DNA from: Shewanella sp. HN-41
Lineage (GTDB): Bacteria; Pseudomonadota; Gammaproteobacteria; Enterobacterales; Shewanellaceae
Length of the DNA: 64,000 nt
Assembly (NCBI RefSeq): GCF_000217915.1
Contig: NZ_AFOZ01000022.1
Location: 1 to 64,000, forward strand
Reading direction: 5' to 3'
The stretch's first letter is position 1. Each line of letters opens with the position of its first letter. The position numbers and the translations under genes were made by a program. The notes beneath the pieces were generated by a model. The model had not been told where the DNA came from, searched no databases, and was given only the letters and a program-made list of their open reading frames with translations. Of the stretch, positions 45,814-52,564 are shown in pieces.

Positions 45814-45858
45814 TGGTCAATCCTATAGCGTTGAATAATGAGTAAGTGTTACGATGCA

Positions 45859-45889
45859 AGGCTAAAGGTTACAGTAACTGGAAGGTCAA
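45859..45889 (-). promoter_or_regulatory. MerR-type promoter of the TonB receptor, 19-bp spacer
   Basis: On the minus strand, -35 TTGACC (45889-45884) and -10 TAGCCT (45864-45859) are separated by 19 bp, longer than the usual 17. The spacer holds GTTAC-T-GTAAC and begins TTCC, resembling the CueR-controlled copA promoter of E. coli (TTGACCTTCC start). MerR proteins activate by untwisting such promoters. The divergent merR TTG start lies at 45891. Confidence 0.75.
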
Positions 45890-45890
45890 G

Positions 45891-46292
45891 TTGAAAATCA
45901 GTGAACTGGCATTAGCTTCACAAGTCCCAGTAAAAACAATTCGCTTTTATGAGCAGGAAGGATTACTACCCTCCCCTAAGAGGATGGCAAATGGTTACCG
46001 CTACTACTCTCAGAGTGATGTAGAGACACTGATTTTTATCCGTCGCTGCCGCGCGCTAAATATTGCTCTGAGTGATATTCGTCGCTTGGTTGAAGTCCAA
46101 CAATATCCACATCATTCCTGCGCCGTGGTCGATGACATCATTGCCGAGCAACTCGAGCATATTCGTCAAACTCAACGGGAGTTAGCAAAGCTTGAGACAT
46201 CACTCTCATCCTTAGTCTCCTGCGATAATCACCAAGTTAGCGACTGTTGCATCCTAAAACGACTCAAAGATGAAGACTGTCTCGCTAATTAA
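45891..46292 (+). CDS. MerR-family metal-responsive regulator
   Basis: 133 residues from the TTG at 45891, which has GGAAGG upstream; no ATG in frame is closer. The N-terminal winged helix reads KISELALASQVPVKTIRFYEQEGLLP. Cys residues lie at HHSC (near 78) and at SCDNHQVSDCC (near 115-123). The three-site pattern is closer to Cd/Pb/Zn-type MerR proteins than to CueR, yet the operator looks CueR-like and the island is copper-centred, so the effector is uncertain. It is the only regulator gene of the island. Confidence 0.85.
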   Translation: MKISELALASQVPVKTIRFYEQEGLLPSPKRMANGYRYYSQSDVETLIFIRRCRALNIALSDIRRLVEVQQYPHHSCAVVDDIIAEQLEHIRQTQRELAKLETSLSSLVSCDNHQVSDCCILKRLKDEDCLAN

Positions 46293-46302
46293 ACCTTCAG
46301 TA

Positions 46303-46745
46303 TTATCCTTTCAGGCGAGACAGTTCCTTTGGTAGATAGGAGCTAAAGGCGGCTCCATCTTGATCTTCTGATTTACTATGGGTATGGCTAAAAAATAGAT
46401 CCCAACCCTCTGTTGGTTTACCGTTTAGCTCAACTTCATAACCTTGGTTACTGGTCCCATCGATGCCGCGCAGTGGGTAGCGGCCATCGGGCAAGGGCGT
46501 GGGATAATTTAGAGCGTTCTGCTACATTTTCTTTTTTCACTTTAAATACAGCGATACTGGCGGTCAGTTACTCATCTAAGAAATCCCCTTTAGCTCCCAG
46601 TTCAATATTATTACCCGTCATTGGATCTAAGCGCTTTGGGTTCGTATCTTCTGCATCCTATGGCTAGAGTATTTCGGTATAACTGCTGTAAATAGAGATA
46701 CTATCGTTCAGGTTGAATATAAGGCCAGCATACCTAGTCGTTAAC
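46303..46745 (-). pseudogene. Decayed TonB-dependent siderophore receptor (C-terminal remnant)
   Basis: The minus strand reads, in pieces, TRYAGLIFNLNDSISIYSSY, then after stops DAEDTNPKRLDPMTGNNIEL and LTASIAVFKVKKENVAER, then in another frame GIDGTSNQGYEVELNGKP and GWDLFFSHTHSKSEDQ. This is the barrel region of a FecA/FpvA-type siderophore receptor, with at least three in-frame stops and one frameshift, and both ends missing. It lies directly after merR. Confidence 0.85.
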
Positions 46746-46947: not shown

Positions 46948-47706
46948 ATGCCCTCTTCATGGTTTTTCTTTGATGTTATCCCCGCGGATATGTTTGCCCT
47001 GTTAACCCTTAGCGCTGCTTTTACCTCTTTTTTTACGGCTTGTTTTGGCATTGGTGGTGGCGTCATGTTATTAGGTGTGATGGCACAAGCGTTACCGCCG
47101 CAACTGATTATTCCAATGCATGGCGTGGTGCAATTGGGCTCGAACGTTGGCCGTGCGGCTCTGGACTGGCGCCAGATTGAATGGAAACTCATAGGTGCAT
47201 TTTTCCCCGGTGCGATTTTAGGGGCATTATTGGGGAGTGTTGTGTTGGTGGCGCTGCCGCCATCAGTCATGTATCTCACCATTGCCGCATTTATTCTGTA
47301 TTCCTGTTGGGGGCCAAAACTGCCCAAAATGGTGCTTGGCACCTTAGGAACACTGGCTGCTGGTGCTATCACCACCTTTATTTCACTATTTGCGGGGGCA
47401 ACTGGGCCATTAGTTGCGGCGTTTATTAAACAATTGGAAGTTGACCGTTTTCGCACCGTCACCACCTTTGCCATGGCGATGTCGTTGCAGCACGGCGTTA
47501 AAATTGTGGTGTTTGAAGGTATCGGCGTATCGCTTGCAGATTGGTGGCCGCTGTTGTTCTATATGATCTTAAGTGGCGCCTTAGGCACCTGGATTGGATT
47601 TAAAATGCTAAAACGGGTTGCCGATAAACATTTTCAAACCACTTTTAGCATTGTGCTTACGCTGCTAGCTATTCGATTGATTTGGCAGGCGATCAGCCAA
47701 TGGTAG
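46948..47706 (+). CDS. TauE/SafE (DUF81) family membrane permease
   Basis: A 252-residue inner-membrane protein with about eight helices. Two related repeats are visible (FFTACFGIGGGVMLLGVMAQ and LGTLAAGAITTFISLFAGATGPL), as in TauE/SafE anion permeases. Members move sulfite, sulfoacetate or related anions; the substrate here is unknown. It is upstream of the Cu ATPase but 296 bp away, so operon membership is doubtful. Confidence 0.82.
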   Translation: MPSSWFFFDVIPADMFALLTLSAAFTSFFTACFGIGGGVMLLGVMAQALPPQLIIPMHGVVQLGSNVGRAALDWRQIEWKLIGAFFPGAILGALLGSVVLVALPPSVMYLTIAAFILYSCWGPKLPKMVLGTLGTLAAGAITTFISLFAGATGPLVAAFIKQLEVDRFRTVTTFAMAMSLQHGVKIVVFEGIGVSLADWWPLLFYMILSGALGTWIGFKMLKRVADKHFQTTFSIVLTLLAIRLIWQAISQW

Positions 47707-48002
47707 AGGTCAAGAAGCAGTAACTGAACACCATTATTGCTTAGGCAAGTGCTTAACTTGATTGAGTGTATGATAATCCCCGAATAATCCGTACCAACAC
47801 TTATGGGCACCTTACTAACTGAGTAAAACCACTTAACGAGGTGAATATGTTCACAAAAATAGTAAGTGTCAAAATCAGCCATAAAGAGGTCTAGCGACAG
47901 CATCCGTAGTGACCAAGAAACTGGGCACCATTAATCATACTGAGCCATGCTTAAACAAGAGATGTAAATATTCTGCAACTAACACGTTGAGGAGTCTCAG
48001 TG

Positions 48003-50303
48003 ATGAAACTAAAAACACAAGACTCGACTTCACCTAAGCATGGCAAACACCAGCAGAGCCAATTAAACCCAACGCCCTCCTTGGAATTGATTATCCAAGG
48101 GGCGGGCTGCGCCAGTTGCGTTAGCAAGATCGAGGCCGCACTGCAGCAGGTACCAGGGGTAACGAGTGCCCAAATGTATTTTGCCGAACGTACGGTCCAA
48201 GTGACGGGAACCGCACCGGTGGCAAATCTACTGAAAGCAGTTGAAGTGGCAGGCTACAAAGCCATAGCCGCTCAGAGTGAAACCGGAAGCGATACGCTGG
48301 ATGAAAAGGAGAAAGCGGATCTCGTCTACTATAGGCGACTGATACGGGAGATGACTCTGGCCCTGTCCTTGGGGGTGCCGCTGATGCTCTATAGCCTAGT
48401 CGTCGGGGAGATGACGGTCAGCAGCACAACGGAACGTATCGTCTGGCTCATAGTCGGCCTGCTTACCCTAGGTGTCATGATATTTTCGGGCAAACATTTC
48501 TATATCGGCGCCTGGAAATCCTTACAGAACCATTCGGCCAATATGGACACTCTGATAGCCCTCGGAACAGGCACGGCCTGGGTCTATTCCATGTTGGTAG
48601 TATTGGTTCCCCATCTACTGCCTGAAATGGCACGCCACGTGTATTTCGAGGCGACAGCGATGATCATAGGCTTGATCGATCTGGGGCTGGCACTGGAGCT
48701 CAAGGCCCGCGGCCGCACCTCGGAAGCGATCAAACGCCTGATAGGTCTACAGCCGAAGACGGCACGGGTGATCCGCGGCATGCAGGAGATGGATATCGCC
48801 ATCGAACAGGTCCTTATCGACGACCAGATACGGGTCCGGCCCGGCGAGAAAATTCCGGTCGATGGTGACGTCATCGAAGGCCATACCTCGGTCGATGAAT
48901 CCATGCTGACCGGTGAGCCCATGCCTGTAGAAAAGAAACCCGGCGATAACTTGGCCGCCGGTACCATCAACAAGACTGGCTCCCTCATCTTCAAAGCCAC
49001 CCGTGTAGGCAAAGACACTGCACTGGCACAAATCATTAATATGGTCAAACGGGCACAAAATTCGAAGCCACCTATCGGTCGGCTGGCGGATGTGATCTCG
49101 GCGTATTTTGTTCCCGTCGTGATGATAGTCGCCATCGTCAGTGCCCTGACATGGTTGAATTTTGGCCCCGAGCCCGCGGTAGCCTTCGCCATGGTATCGG
49201 CAACAACAGTACTCATCATCGCCTGCCCCTGTGCCCTAGGTTTGGCCACCCCCATGTCCGTTATGGTTGGAGTCGGTAAGGCGGCAGAGGCTGGCGTGCT
49301 GATCCGCAATGGTGAGGCGCTGCAAACCGCATCGAAAATCACCGCCATGATCCTAGATAAGACTGGCACTATCACCTTGGGCGCGCCCAAGGTGACCGAT
49401 ATCGTCCTAGCGGGCTCCATTGGCGAAGCGCGGGTATTGCAACTGGCCGCCAGTCTCGAATCGGGTTCGGAACACCCGTTAGCACAGGCGATCGTCGAGA
49501 CGGCGCAAGAACGGGGCATTGAGCTTCTAAAAGTCAGTCAATTCAATGCCATTGCTGGCCATGGGGTCGAGGCCCAAGTCGACGGCCAGATGTTACTCTT
49601 TGGCAATGAAAAACTAATGAATGATCGCAATATCGCCCTAGGCTCTTTGGTCGACAAAGCACAACAATTAGCCCTAGATGCAAAGACTCCTATGTATTTC
49701 ACCGTGGATGGCAATTTTGCGGCCATCATAGCCGTGGCAGATCCCATAAAAGATGATTCCATCGCCGCAATTAAGCGGCTGCAAAAAAACGGCATCCGGG
49801 TAGTGATGTTAACCGGTGACAACCGCGACACCGCCAGAGCCGTTGCGGCCAAGTCCGGCATCACAGAATTTTTTGCCGAAGTGTTGCCACAGGAGAAATC
49901 CCAAAAAGTACAGCAGTTGCAAATGCAGGGGGAGATAGTGGGTATGACAGGAGATGGCATCAATGACGCGCCCGCACTGGCGATGGCAAATGTCGGCTTT
50001 GCGATAGGCACAGGGACAGATGTGGCCATCGAAAGCGCCGATATCACCCTGATGCGCGGCTCCCTGCATGGGTTGGCTGACGCGATTGCGATCAGCAAGG
50101 CCACCCTTCGAAATATTAAACAAAACCTGTTCGGCGCCTTTGTCTACAACGTAGCGGGAGTGCCGTTTGCTGCCGGAGTGTTGTACCCATTTTTTGGCCT
50201 ATTGCTAAGCCCAGTGATCGCCGGTGCGGCGATGGCCTTTTCATCCTTGACCGTAGTGACCAATGCCAACCGTCTGCGCCTGTTTAAAGCCCAGGAACAT
50301 TGA
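48003..50303 (+). CDS. copA2: Cu(I)-exporting P1B-type ATPase (CopA type)
   Basis: A 766-residue P-type ATPase exporting Cu(I) to the periplasm. One N-terminal HMA domain has GAGCASC (about 36-42). [10 protein letters not shown] is the intramembrane site, TGEPMPVEK the actuator, DKTGTITLG the phosphorylation site, [13 protein letters not shown] the hinge, and SEHPLAQAI the nucleotide-binding HP motif, so it is intact. The ATG at 48003 follows GAGGAGT; a GTG lies one codon upstream. It heads the rightward copper arm. Its codon use, with many GGC, CGG and CTG, looks richer in GC than the surrounding genes, which suggests transfer. Confidence 0.94.
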
Positions 50304-50319
50304 GCGTGAGGAGAGCATT

Positions 50320-50673
50320 ATGTTAATAATAAATATCGTCGGTATTTTGTTGATTGCACTGATCATCTGGTGGTTCTGGCTGTATCGGCCCAAGGAAGCC
50401 GTGTTTGAACAAGACAAGATGACCATTCTGGTAGAAAACGGCATCTACCAGCCCTCACGGATTAAAATACACGTCAACCAAGCCACCCGTTTGCAGTTTA
50501 TCCGTAAAGACGCTTCGCCCTGCGCCGAAACCTTGGTGTTTCCCGAACTGGAGATCAGCGAGACCCTGCCCTTGAATAGACCCAAGTCGATTGCATTACC
50601 GGCATTGCCAGCGGGTGTCTATCACTTCCATTGCCAGATGCAAATGTACTGTGGCGAATTGCATGTCGAGTGA
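50320..50673 (+). CDS. Membrane-anchored cupredoxin-domain protein
   Basis: 117 residues from the ATG at 50320 (GAGGAG 6 nt upstream). One N-terminal helix (LIINIVGILLIALIIWWFWLY) is followed by a beta-rich domain ending YHFHCQMQMYCGELHV; the His, Cys and Met there are likely type 1 copper ligands. It would take or pass copper at the periplasmic face of the adjacent ATPase. 16 bp after the ATPase gene. Confidence 0.82.
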   Translation: MLIINIVGILLIALIIWWFWLYRPKEAVFEQDKMTILVENGIYQPSRIKIHVNQATRLQFIRKDASPCAETLVFPELEISETLPLNRPKSIALPALPAGVYHFHCQMQMYCGELHVE

Positions 50674-50765
50674 AGCGAACTATGATCTAAAGATGCCATG
50701 GGCTAATAATGAACAAGTGATAGAGAGTGTCCGGCGATAACGAGTTAATTTTTATGAGGTGAGTT

Positions 50766-51032
50766 ATGGCTAAGCAACGGCGTTCATTTTGGTTCACGCC
50801 ACAGGGTTGGGCCGCCATAGGAATGATAGCCGCAGTAAGTTACTTCCTCTTTATGGAGCATAGACAACATTTATTTGAGTTCCTGCCCTTGCTGATTTTA
50901 TTGGCCTGCCCCTTGATGCACGTTTTCATGCACCATGGGCATAGACACCATAACGACGATCCCCATAGAGCAGATAAAGATGGAAGCAGCTTAAATCCCA
51001 AGGGTAATAGGGAGAATGATGATGCACGATGA
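50766..51032 (+). CDS. DUF2933 small membrane protein
   Basis: 88 residues with two hydrophobic helices (WAAIGMIAAVSYFLFMEH and FLPLLILLACPLMHVF) and a His-rich stretch MHHGHRHHNDDPHR typical of DUF2933. The family clusters with copper and silver resistance genes, and the His-rich tail could bind metal. It overlaps the next gene by about 11 bp. Confidence 0.85.
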   Translation: MAKQRRSFWFTPQGWAAIGMIAAVSYFLFMEHRQHLFEFLPLLILLACPLMHVFMHHGHRHHNDDPHRADKDGSSLNPKGNRENDDAR

Positions 51033-51696
51033 ATCTGCCTATGGTTTGTGGTCACTGGTGATCTTGAATTCTGCCATCTTTATCTTTTTCGCCTTCAGTT
51101 TTGTCAAACCTAGGACAATATCGGACTGGCGCAGCCTCGGTGCCTTTTCAGCATTTATCGTCGCACTCTTTACCGAGATGTATGGCTTCCCATTGAGTAT
51201 CTATTTCCTCTCCGGTTGGCTTACCAAGTACTATCCCGACGTGGATTTCTTTGCCCATGACAACGGTCACCTGCTGCATACCCTGCTCGGCTTCGAAGGC
51301 AACCCCCATTGGGATCCGTTACATATCGTCAGCAACCTGCTCATTGTCATGGGCTTCATTTTACTGTCCTCCGCTTGGAGTGTGTTGCATAAGGCGCAAC
51401 AAACTCGAACCTTAGCCTGTACAGGTTGGTACGCCCGCTGTCGGCATCCGCAATACCTCGCATTTATCCTGATCATGTTTGGCTTTCTGCTTCAATGGCC
51501 AACTATCCCCACCCTAGTGCTGTTCCCTATATTGGTGTTGGTTTATGTGCGCCTAGCGAAGCGAGAGGAACAGCAGGCATTGGCAGAGTTTGGTGATGCC
51601 TATCGTGCCTATATGCACCGAACACCAGCATGGTTCCCAAAAATAAAACTCCATAGTGCTGAAACAAAACCTGAAAAAACTGAGGAAAAACCATGA
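51022..51696 (+). CDS. Isoprenylcysteine carboxyl methyltransferase (ICMT)-like membrane protein
   Basis: 224 residues from the ATG at 51022, one of three consecutive ATGs (51016, 51019, 51022); GGAGA at 51011 fits 51022 best. About five helices, with the ICMT/PEMT-like C-terminal half: RCRHPQYLAFILIMFG, then KREEQQALAEFGDAYRAYM, which form the SAM pocket in the family. No prenylated protein is expected in bacteria, so the substrate is unknown. Such genes recur beside DUF2933 and Cu ATPases. It overlaps the next gene by 4 bp. Confidence 0.82.
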   Translation: MHDESAYGLWSLVILNSAIFIFFAFSFVKPRTISDWRSLGAFSAFIVALFTEMYGFPLSIYFLSGWLTKYYPDVDFFAHDNGHLLHTLLGFEGNPHWDPLHIVSNLLIVMGFILLSSAWSVLHKAQQTRTLACTGWYARCRHPQYLAFILIMFGFLLQWPTIPTLVLFPILVLVYVRLAKREEQQALAEFGDAYRAYMHRTPAWFPKIKLHSAETKPEKTEEKP

Positions 51697-52145
51697 AAAC
51701 ACTCATTAACACTCTCGCCATCTCATCCCTACTAGCATCATCAGCTGTGTTAGCTGTCGTAGAACAGCCACAGGGCCGCTCGCAAAATGGCGGCATGATG
51801 ATGGGAATGATGAACCAGGATCAGATGATGACAATGCAGGATCAGATGATGACAATGCAGGATCAGATGATGACAATGCAGTCTTTGATGAACAATATCA
51901 AACAGGAAAAGAACCCGGAAAAACATCGGGAATTGATGCAACAGCATTGGGAGGCCATGCAAAAAGGGATGCACATGATGAACGGCAGTATGATGGGAGA
52001 ACAATCAGGAAATCAACAAGGTGCAGAGAAGGATATGCCCGGGATGGACATGGGTGAACGCATGGGCATGATGGAGCAGCACATGGGCATGATCCAGATG
52101 ATGATGGAGCAAATGATGGAACATGATGCGCAGGAGCATCAATAG
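51693..52145 (+). CDS. Met-rich secreted protein
   Basis: 150 residues: signal peptide (MKTLINTLAISSLLASSAVLA) and a mature part with dozens of Met in runs such as GGMMMGMMNQDQMM and DMGERMGMMEQHMGM. Three identical QDQMMTM units come from a 21-bp tandem repeat. Met thioethers bind Cu(I) and Ag(I), so a periplasmic copper sponge is likely. The overlap with the ICMT-like gene (ATGA) points to co-translation. Confidence 0.8.
   Translation: MKTLINTLAISSLLASSAVLAVVEQPQGRSQNGGMMMGMMNQDQMMTMQDQMMTMQDQMMTMQSLMNNIKQEKNPEKHRELMQQHWEAMQKGMHMMNGSMMGEQSGNQQGAEKDMPGMDMGERMGMMEQHMGMIQMMMEQMMEHDAQEHQ
51819..51881 (+). repeat. Three perfect 21-bp tandem repeats in the Met-rich gene
   Basis: GATCAGATGATGACAATGCA plus G is repeated at 51819, 51840 and 51861 without a mismatch, in frame (7 residues each). 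Perfect identity suggests recent expansion. Confidence 0.93.
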
Positions 52146-52291
52146 TGACCCTCAATGAAAACTTATCGTGAGACTCCTAAAGTGGATAAAACATGATGGG
52201 CCCAGTCTTTGACACACCTCTATTTGTGTCTTCCAGCCACCAGCGCATGTCATATCTTTTTGGGAGTCTCAGACAATTTAAGGAGATATCG

Positions 52292-52564
52292 ATGAAAATC
52301 AATGCAACCAAATTTGGCCTAGCAGCCGCCCTCACCTTTGCCATACTCTGGCTCGTTTGTAGCCTGCTGGTATGGCTGTTGCCTTCATTGATGATGGATA
52401 TGACGGGTCATATGATCCATGGCAACTGGTCACAAATGGGTTGGCAGCTATCTGTAAGCGGTATTTTTATGGGGTTGATAAGTTGGTCTGTACTGGCTGG
52501 CGTATATGGCTGGTTACTGGCGACTATCTACAACAAATTATGCAGTAGTGCTGTCATACACTGA
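52292..52564 (+). CDS. DUF5676 membrane protein
   Basis: 90 residues from the ATG at 52292, with AAGGAGAT at good distance. MKINATKFGLAAALTFAILW and the second helix GIFMGLISWSVLAGVYGWLL are typical of DUF5676, a two-helix membrane family common in copper and heavy-metal clusters. Function unknown. An upstream in-frame extension to 52193 lacks a ribosome site. Confidence 0.8.
   Translation: MKINATKFGLAAALTFAILWLVCSLLVWLLPSLMMDMTGHMIHGNWSQMGWQLSVSGIFMGLISWSVLAGVYGWLLATIYNKLCSSAVIH

Follow-up and report, generated by a model that had tools for sequence, protein, structure and literature searches.

A DUF2933 protein and a putative ICMT-fold enzyme as a candidate membrane pair in a bacterial copper-handling module

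We found that an isoprenylcysteine methyltransferase (ICMT)-like gene in the copper cluster of Shewanella sp. HN-41 belongs to one discrete subfamily that is tied to copper and to a single small partner protein, DUF2933; this link is what is new here. The gene lies on contig NZ_AFOZ01000022.1, of which we analyzed positions 1 to 64,000 (64,000 nucleotides, hereafter the window). We propose that it is part of a module for copper handling that has spread horizontally, and that within this module the ICMT-fold enzyme and DUF2933 probably act as a membrane pair. The features of the cluster are as follows:

48003..50303, + strand: CopA, a Cu(I)-type P1B ATPase with a single N-terminal HMA domain (TIGR01511, 620.8 bits; cut-off 397)
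50320..50673, + strand: cupredoxin-domain protein with a hydrophobic N-terminal anchor (PF13473, 83.8 bits; hydrophobic residues 1-19)
50766..51032, + strand: small DUF2933 membrane protein whose tail is rich in His (PF11666, 78.4 bits)
50907..50951, + strand: DUF2933 motif CPLMHxFMHxGHxxH, residues 48-62, a proposed Cu(I) site
51022..51696 (alternative start 51016), + strand: putative ICMT-fold membrane enzyme (PF04140, profile match to Ma-ICMT, fold of the structure model)
51256..51324, + strand: span of the four His (H79, H83, H96, and H101) of the ICMT-like protein, conserved and predicted to face the periplasm
51442..51456, + strand: RHPQY, residues 141-145, conserved first half of a signature of the ICMT-type S-adenosylmethionine (SAM) site
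51565..51570, + strand: EE, residues 182-183, conserved second half of that signature
51693..52145, + strand: secreted Met-rich protein, its gene containing a 21-bp tandem repeat (24% Met, hydrophobic N-terminal segment)
52295..52564, + strand: DUF5676 small membrane protein, a downstream companion (PF18926, 90.8 bits)

The five genes from copA to the Met-rich gene run in one direction, and the ICMT-like gene overlaps DUF2933 on one side (51022-51032) and the Met-rich gene on the other (51693-51696). An earlier reading of this DNA from its letters (the original prediction) had placed these five genes and both overlaps correctly, as judged by profile matches and open reading frame (ORF) coordinates; it had overlooked the DUF5676 gene.

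To delimit the family free of pattern bias, we built a profile from eight members and searched it against 398 genomes of the phylum (the unbiased set). Full-length matches at E < 1e-70 were found at 27 places in 24 of the 398 genomes, the window's own included. The next match was a fragment at 9e-34, and the remainder (E ≥ 7e-18) were chiefly matches to the C-terminal ICMT domain. The family is thus discrete and full-length, and the window protein, as one of its members, is cleanly apart from ordinary ICMT-domain proteins. The 398 genomes divided into 19 with both the enzyme and DUF2933, 5 with only the enzyme, 13 with only DUF2933, and 361 with neither (p 9e-20, uncorrected for ancestry); the corresponding counts for 197 genomes of the order were 11, 0, 8, and 178 (p 2e-13, likewise uncorrected). 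Among the five enzyme-alone genomes, one (G418) has an adjacent DUF2933 gene by a custom profile and another (G427) has a copy that starts at base 83 of its contig, while a search beside the enzyme in the remaining three (G214, G283, and G298) found no DUF2933.

A second collection of 80 loci was found with the patterns FI[FI]FAFSF and ALFTEMYG, and all figures for it are counts among the matches listed; because these patterns were used for finding the loci, conservation in it is biased at the searched columns and counts are skewed to close relatives. A DUF2933 gene lay on the same strand at most 1.5 kb upstream of 77 of its 85 ICMT ORFs, and in 20 of those 77 the two genes overlapped by 4 bases, by the starts used. 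The count takes in L111, a short piece in L052, and second copies in L075 and L103 that share a DUF2933 gene with the first copy; the eight misses are L068 (at a contig edge), a fragment in L075, L072, L083, L086, L095, L110, and L116. An apparent DUF2933-ICMT fusion in L111 was rejected, as the two parts are connected only by a stretch of N. Adjacent and often overlapping DUF2933 genes recur in proteobacterial, cyanobacterial, and other loci, and we consider it likely that DUF2933 and the enzyme act together.

A set of four His residues is a further conserved feature. H79, H83, H96, and H101 are each present in 78 of 78 pattern-based sequences (77 ORFs plus the window; eight of the 85 ORFs were set aside, namely four without the searched start motif, L111, the long fusion in L116, and the L052 and L075 pieces), and 22 of the 26 unbiased members have the full quartet. 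DUF2933 adjoins 20 of the 22 quartet copies versus one of the four without the full quartet (p 0.014, with few events), and one of the two quartet copies that lack an adjacent DUF2933 begins at a contig edge. Of the four incomplete copies, L191 and the second copy of L185 retain H79 and H83, whereas H96 and H101 are missing from both. The loop ahead of the third long helix (residues 71-98) contains no K/R and five D/E, with H101 at the helix start, and from this charge distribution we predict that the quartet loop is periplasmic and the SAM site cytosolic. Two natural fusions fit the predicted topology: in L185 an N-terminal domain with a signal-like start, judged by eye, is joined to the enzyme, and in L116 the enzyme is followed by a C-terminal hydrophobic stretch and then a Met-rich-like domain (E 1.9e-7 with a profile built without L116). 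We have not seen these four conserved, predicted periplasmic-side His described in print. As a separate observation, the fused domain of L185 (5552-6700) resembles by eye the family of L097 7244-7708, which has no Pfam match and lies upstream in 9 of the 80 listed loci.

We assign the ICMT-like gene to a copper module with strong confidence. A CopA, CusA, multicopper oxidase, or CopB gene was present near 19 of 25 unbiased loci (stretches of 8-20 kb were read), whereas the same genes were present at one of 20 control loci of other, C-terminal-only ICMT-family genes, hand-picked from the same phylum search (p 2e-6). The original prediction had made the gene part of the copper module and had proposed a survey of neighborhoods for constant co-occurrence; that survey finds linkage beyond chance and rejects random co-occurrence. 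P1B ATPases occur in 66 of the 80 listed loci, and copper genes also lie near DUF2933 in 18 of 19 loci without the enzyme. CopA is upstream in nine and downstream in seven of 16 unbiased loci, suggesting that DUF2933-ICMT behaves as a unit set beside varying copper genes. The other companions are less regular: DUF5676 occurs in 17 of the 80 listed and 4 of the 25 unbiased loci, and hits to a Met-rich profile in 33 of the 80 (where 19 of the hit ORFs had built that profile), 6 of the 25, 5 of the 19 DUF2933-only, and none of the 20 control loci.

There are exceptions to this pattern. CopA also neighbors each of the four unbiased copies whose quartet is incomplete, and three of these have no DUF2933. 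Copper genes give way to phosphoketolase and GAPDH genes in a Pseudarthrobacter locus and to genes for an MBL-fold hydrolase and thymidine phosphorylase in a Sphingobium locus, and the Bradyrhizobium genes bsl7992-bll7991-bll7990 are given as FixK2-dependent, with a methionine adenosyltransferase gene listed alongside (PMC9104804). Genes for thymidine phosphorylase, ribose-phosphate diphosphokinase, and the MBL-fold hydrolase are each found in 10-12 of the 80 listed loci, 3-4 of the 25 unbiased loci, and none of the 20 control loci (loci with one or more of them are L046, L049, L138, L178, L182, L184, and L186), and this set is a second recurring neighborhood besides the copper genes.

The enzyme itself is at the margin of its named family. 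The PF04140 score was only just over the cut-off (26.4-28.2 bits; cut-off 24), the equivalog model for protein-S-isoprenylcysteine O-methyltransferase (NF040696) scored 50.5 bits against a cut-off of 160 over residues 116-210 only, and the ERG4_ERG24, PEMT, DUF1295, and NnrU models were all under their cut-offs; from the family model alone, an ICMT assignment is weak. The original prediction had pointed to RHPQY and EE/FG patterns, and all are present in the sequence (141-145, 182-183, and 190-191) and conserved in relatives: RHPQY in 78 of 78 pattern-based sequences, the window's included, and 26 of 26 unbiased members, EE in 78 of 78 and 25 of 26 (L180 has KE). We take RHPxY with EE...FG to be the SAM site, following work on ICMT. 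The best match in the PDB by sequence profile was Ma-ICMT (4a2n; E 3.4e-10, profile positions 115-208), to which the EE...FG...Y...P part aligns residue by residue. Outside these positions, 4a2n aligned only over a nonsignificant stretch (9-62), so the quartet region is not comparable. A structure model (pLDDT 83.2) has five long helices, and ICMT structures were among its best fold matches in a VIA-align comparison restricted to 85 chains forwarded by Foldseek; the modeled protein resembles Ma-ICMT and eukaryotic ICMT (5vg9 and 5v7p) in overall fold. SAM use by the enzyme is likely. Prenylated protein substrates are not expected in this organism.

We consider the following mechanism the most likely. 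Cu(I) would be exported over the inner membrane by CopA and bound at or beyond the membrane by the anchored cupredoxin, the Met-rich protein, and DUF2933, of which the last, with its EHxxH and CPLMHxFMH motifs, would serve as a membrane Cu(I)-binding subunit. The ICMT-like protein would be an inner-membrane enzyme with its SAM site at the cytosolic face and the four His at the periplasmic face, both by prediction. With SAM, it may modify either DUF2933 itself or a lipid or a thiol that DUF2933 holds, allowing copper to be bound harmlessly or handed on. If the enzyme modifies a neighbor, DUF2933 is the one most strongly indicated, rather than the cupredoxin or the Met-rich protein; that DUF2933 is itself the methylation substrate is a guess, and one we regard as doubtful. 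A bolder version, in which the pair is a two-component membrane copper device in several phyla whose His quartet senses or binds periplasmic copper while cytosolic SAM is used to methylate DUF2933 or its ligand, strikes us as rather unlikely as it stands. One result bears on the motif Cys of DUF2933 as the target. This Cys is present in 96% of 102 DUF2933 hits at ICMT-linked loci, but where the enzyme is absent from the locus, 17 of 17 hits have it as well (19 such loci, two of which gave no row in the count; two of the 19, L209 and L210, are in genomes with the enzyme elsewhere). Since the Cys is kept in the absence of the enzyme, the CPLMH motif does not depend on it, and the case for this Cys as an ICMT-specific target is weakened.

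Other substrates have to be considered. The enzyme could methylate a small thiol or other low-molecular compound, in the manner of MddA, and so remove a copper-reactive thiol, with the DUF2933 link reflecting co-inheritance only. The NCBIfam model of this methanethiol S-methyltransferase does match the C-terminal part of the protein, but at 20.7 bits against a cut-off of 270, and co-inheritance alone does not demand a DUF2933 gene that is adjacent and often overlapping in diverse loci; we think this explanation unlikely. We give similarly little credence to methylation of a membrane lipid, by an activity like LmtA or a phospholipid methyltransferase, that would alter the membrane near the copper pump: the enzyme is integral to the membrane and matches LmtA (32.6 bits) and PEMT (23.2 bits), both under cut-off, but a lipid substrate leaves the periplasmic His and the DUF2933 pairing unexplained.

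The protein might instead be a non-methyltransferase of the ICMT/sterol-reductase fold with another cofactor, for example one that donates electrons to Cu(II) or a quinone. We judge this improbable, given that the best PDB profile match is Ma-ICMT with its residue-by-residue agreement and that no sterol reductase chain appears among the PDB profile matches up to E 1. Alternatively, the pair could serve assembly of a cuproenzyme (cbb3 oxidase) at low oxygen, copper tolerance being secondary. Expression in Bradyrhizobium is consistent with such a role, as bsl7992 (DUF2933) and bll7991 (ICMT) change −23.0-fold and −22.8-fold upon fixK2 deletion under microoxia (PMC9104804), and an expression table of a blr7984 mutant contains both along with fixG, fixH, fixI, and fixQ (PMC5017801). 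The neighbors in the window, however, are copper-efflux genes, as they are in most related loci, and we consider cbb3 assembly an unlikely principal function. We retain the copper-handling pair of DUF2933 and an ICMT-fold enzyme as the preferred reading. If the bolder two-component version is true, methylation would be part of the chemistry by which bacteria handle copper, in efflux as well as low-oxygen cuproenzyme settings; to our knowledge, the current Cue, Cus, and Pco models contain no such step.

The original prediction had offered the cluster as its best candidate for an undescribed system, which does not hold: merR-copA-cupredoxin-hypothetical/DUF2933-ICMT was published in 2021 for Alteromonas macleodii CUKW/KCC02 and tabulated for Alteromonas and at least nine other genera; its occurrence is patchy, and plasmids or genomic islands often carry it (PMC8478169). 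In A. macleodii, copA and merR are induced by copper; the expression section names merR, copA, copC, and copD and not the ICMT gene, and the portions of the article available to us propose no function for the ICMT-like protein. The window has the same order copA-cupredoxin-DUF2933-ICMT but, unlike this cluster, has no merR directly before copA and adds the Met-rich and DUF5676 genes downstream. The displaced merR is compatible with membership, since merR-free clusters are tabulated there too (PMC8478169). Other published ICMT genes in copper settings are a "czcN homolog" that directly follows cusCBAF in a P. putida listing (PMC3056050) and one from Psychrobacter that a figure legend names together with a laccase-like gene, copB, and a copper ATPase (PMC4754876).

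ICMT-like genes in bacterial metal clusters, among them CzcN, NccN, and the window's, have been listed for years, and in the open-access literature, which excludes most subscription journals, we found no function for the window's gene in print and no substrate for any of these proteins. With the link between subfamily, DUF2933, and copper, and with the four predicted periplasmic His, "function unknown" can be replaced by a small number of testable statements. Like CzcN and NccN of Cupriavidus metallidurans, the window protein is an ICMT-domain membrane protein inside a metal-resistance cluster. CzcN is 31% identical to it over 134 residues of the C-terminal part, with a BLASTP alignment that spans only window residues 93-216 and leaves H96 and H101 unmatched, and it adjoins cobalt-zinc-cadmium RND efflux genes with no DUF2933 in an incomplete gene table. 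We reject orthology with CzcN on the basis of this C-terminal-only similarity and the copA instead of czc context. There is also a sister clade with full-length similarity of 28-39%, from Pseudomonas aeruginosa pNK546b, Alteromonas stellipolaris pASTE61-200, and Haloprofundus pMHR1-1 (L126-L128). It keeps EMYGFPL and RHPQY, and two of the three lie beside copper genes; unlike the window protein, none of the three has a complete His quartet (in P. aeruginosa, H83 is the only one kept) or an annotated adjacent DUF2933.

Patchy occurrence, plasmid carriage, and G+C contrast taken together point to horizontal spread. A family member at ≥60% identity was found in 11 of 197 genomes of the order, and in the genus in two of the 13 genomes listed, the window's included. 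The other same-genus copy (L037, 6521-7144, − strand) has an in-frame stop; DUF2933, Met-rich, and DUF5676 genes adjoin it, and tblastn found no CopA homolog in its 14-kb stretch. Among plasmids, 259 records matched, 235 of them covering at least 80% of the query, with carriers that range from Acinetobacter and Sphingobium to Streptomyces and cyanobacteria and a remote relative in a haloarchaeon. CopA of the window has 54-57% G+C, versus 38-48% for the DNA flanking the operon. No PF04140 match other than the ICMT-like gene was found in its genome (E ≤ 0.001).

CopA additionally matches PF00122, PF00702, and PF00403, as well as NF007952 (925.7 bits, under its 1316 cut-off), and contains CPC and MxxSS motifs, which we take to be significant for CopA identity. 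A further GTG start is available 3 bases upstream of 48003. Upstream of copA are a TauE gene (46948-47706), a MerR regulator (45846-46292), and a TonB receptor on the opposite strand. The MerR gene, which scores best with CadR/PbrR, under that model's cut-off, is the nearest of its kind, 1.7 kb upstream of copA with the TauE gene between. A short minus-strand ORF between MerR and TauE (46303-46494) resembles, read by eye, a remnant of a second TonB-type receptor. A scan for promoters and terminators gave site numbers about equal to those of shuffled sequence. The sequence GGAGTCTCAG stands directly before copA (47991-48000) and again before DUF5676 (52261-52270), and a partial inverted copy, GAGACTCC, is near 52170 (52170-52177); both may be chance. 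In the cupredoxin (50320-50400), YRPK follows the N-terminal hydrophobic segment, which by the positive-inside rule would place the domain in the cytosol, against expectation. The Met-rich protein matched no Pfam family; within its gene, a 21-bp unit coding DQMMTMQ is repeated head to tail (51813-51885), which suggests recent expansion.

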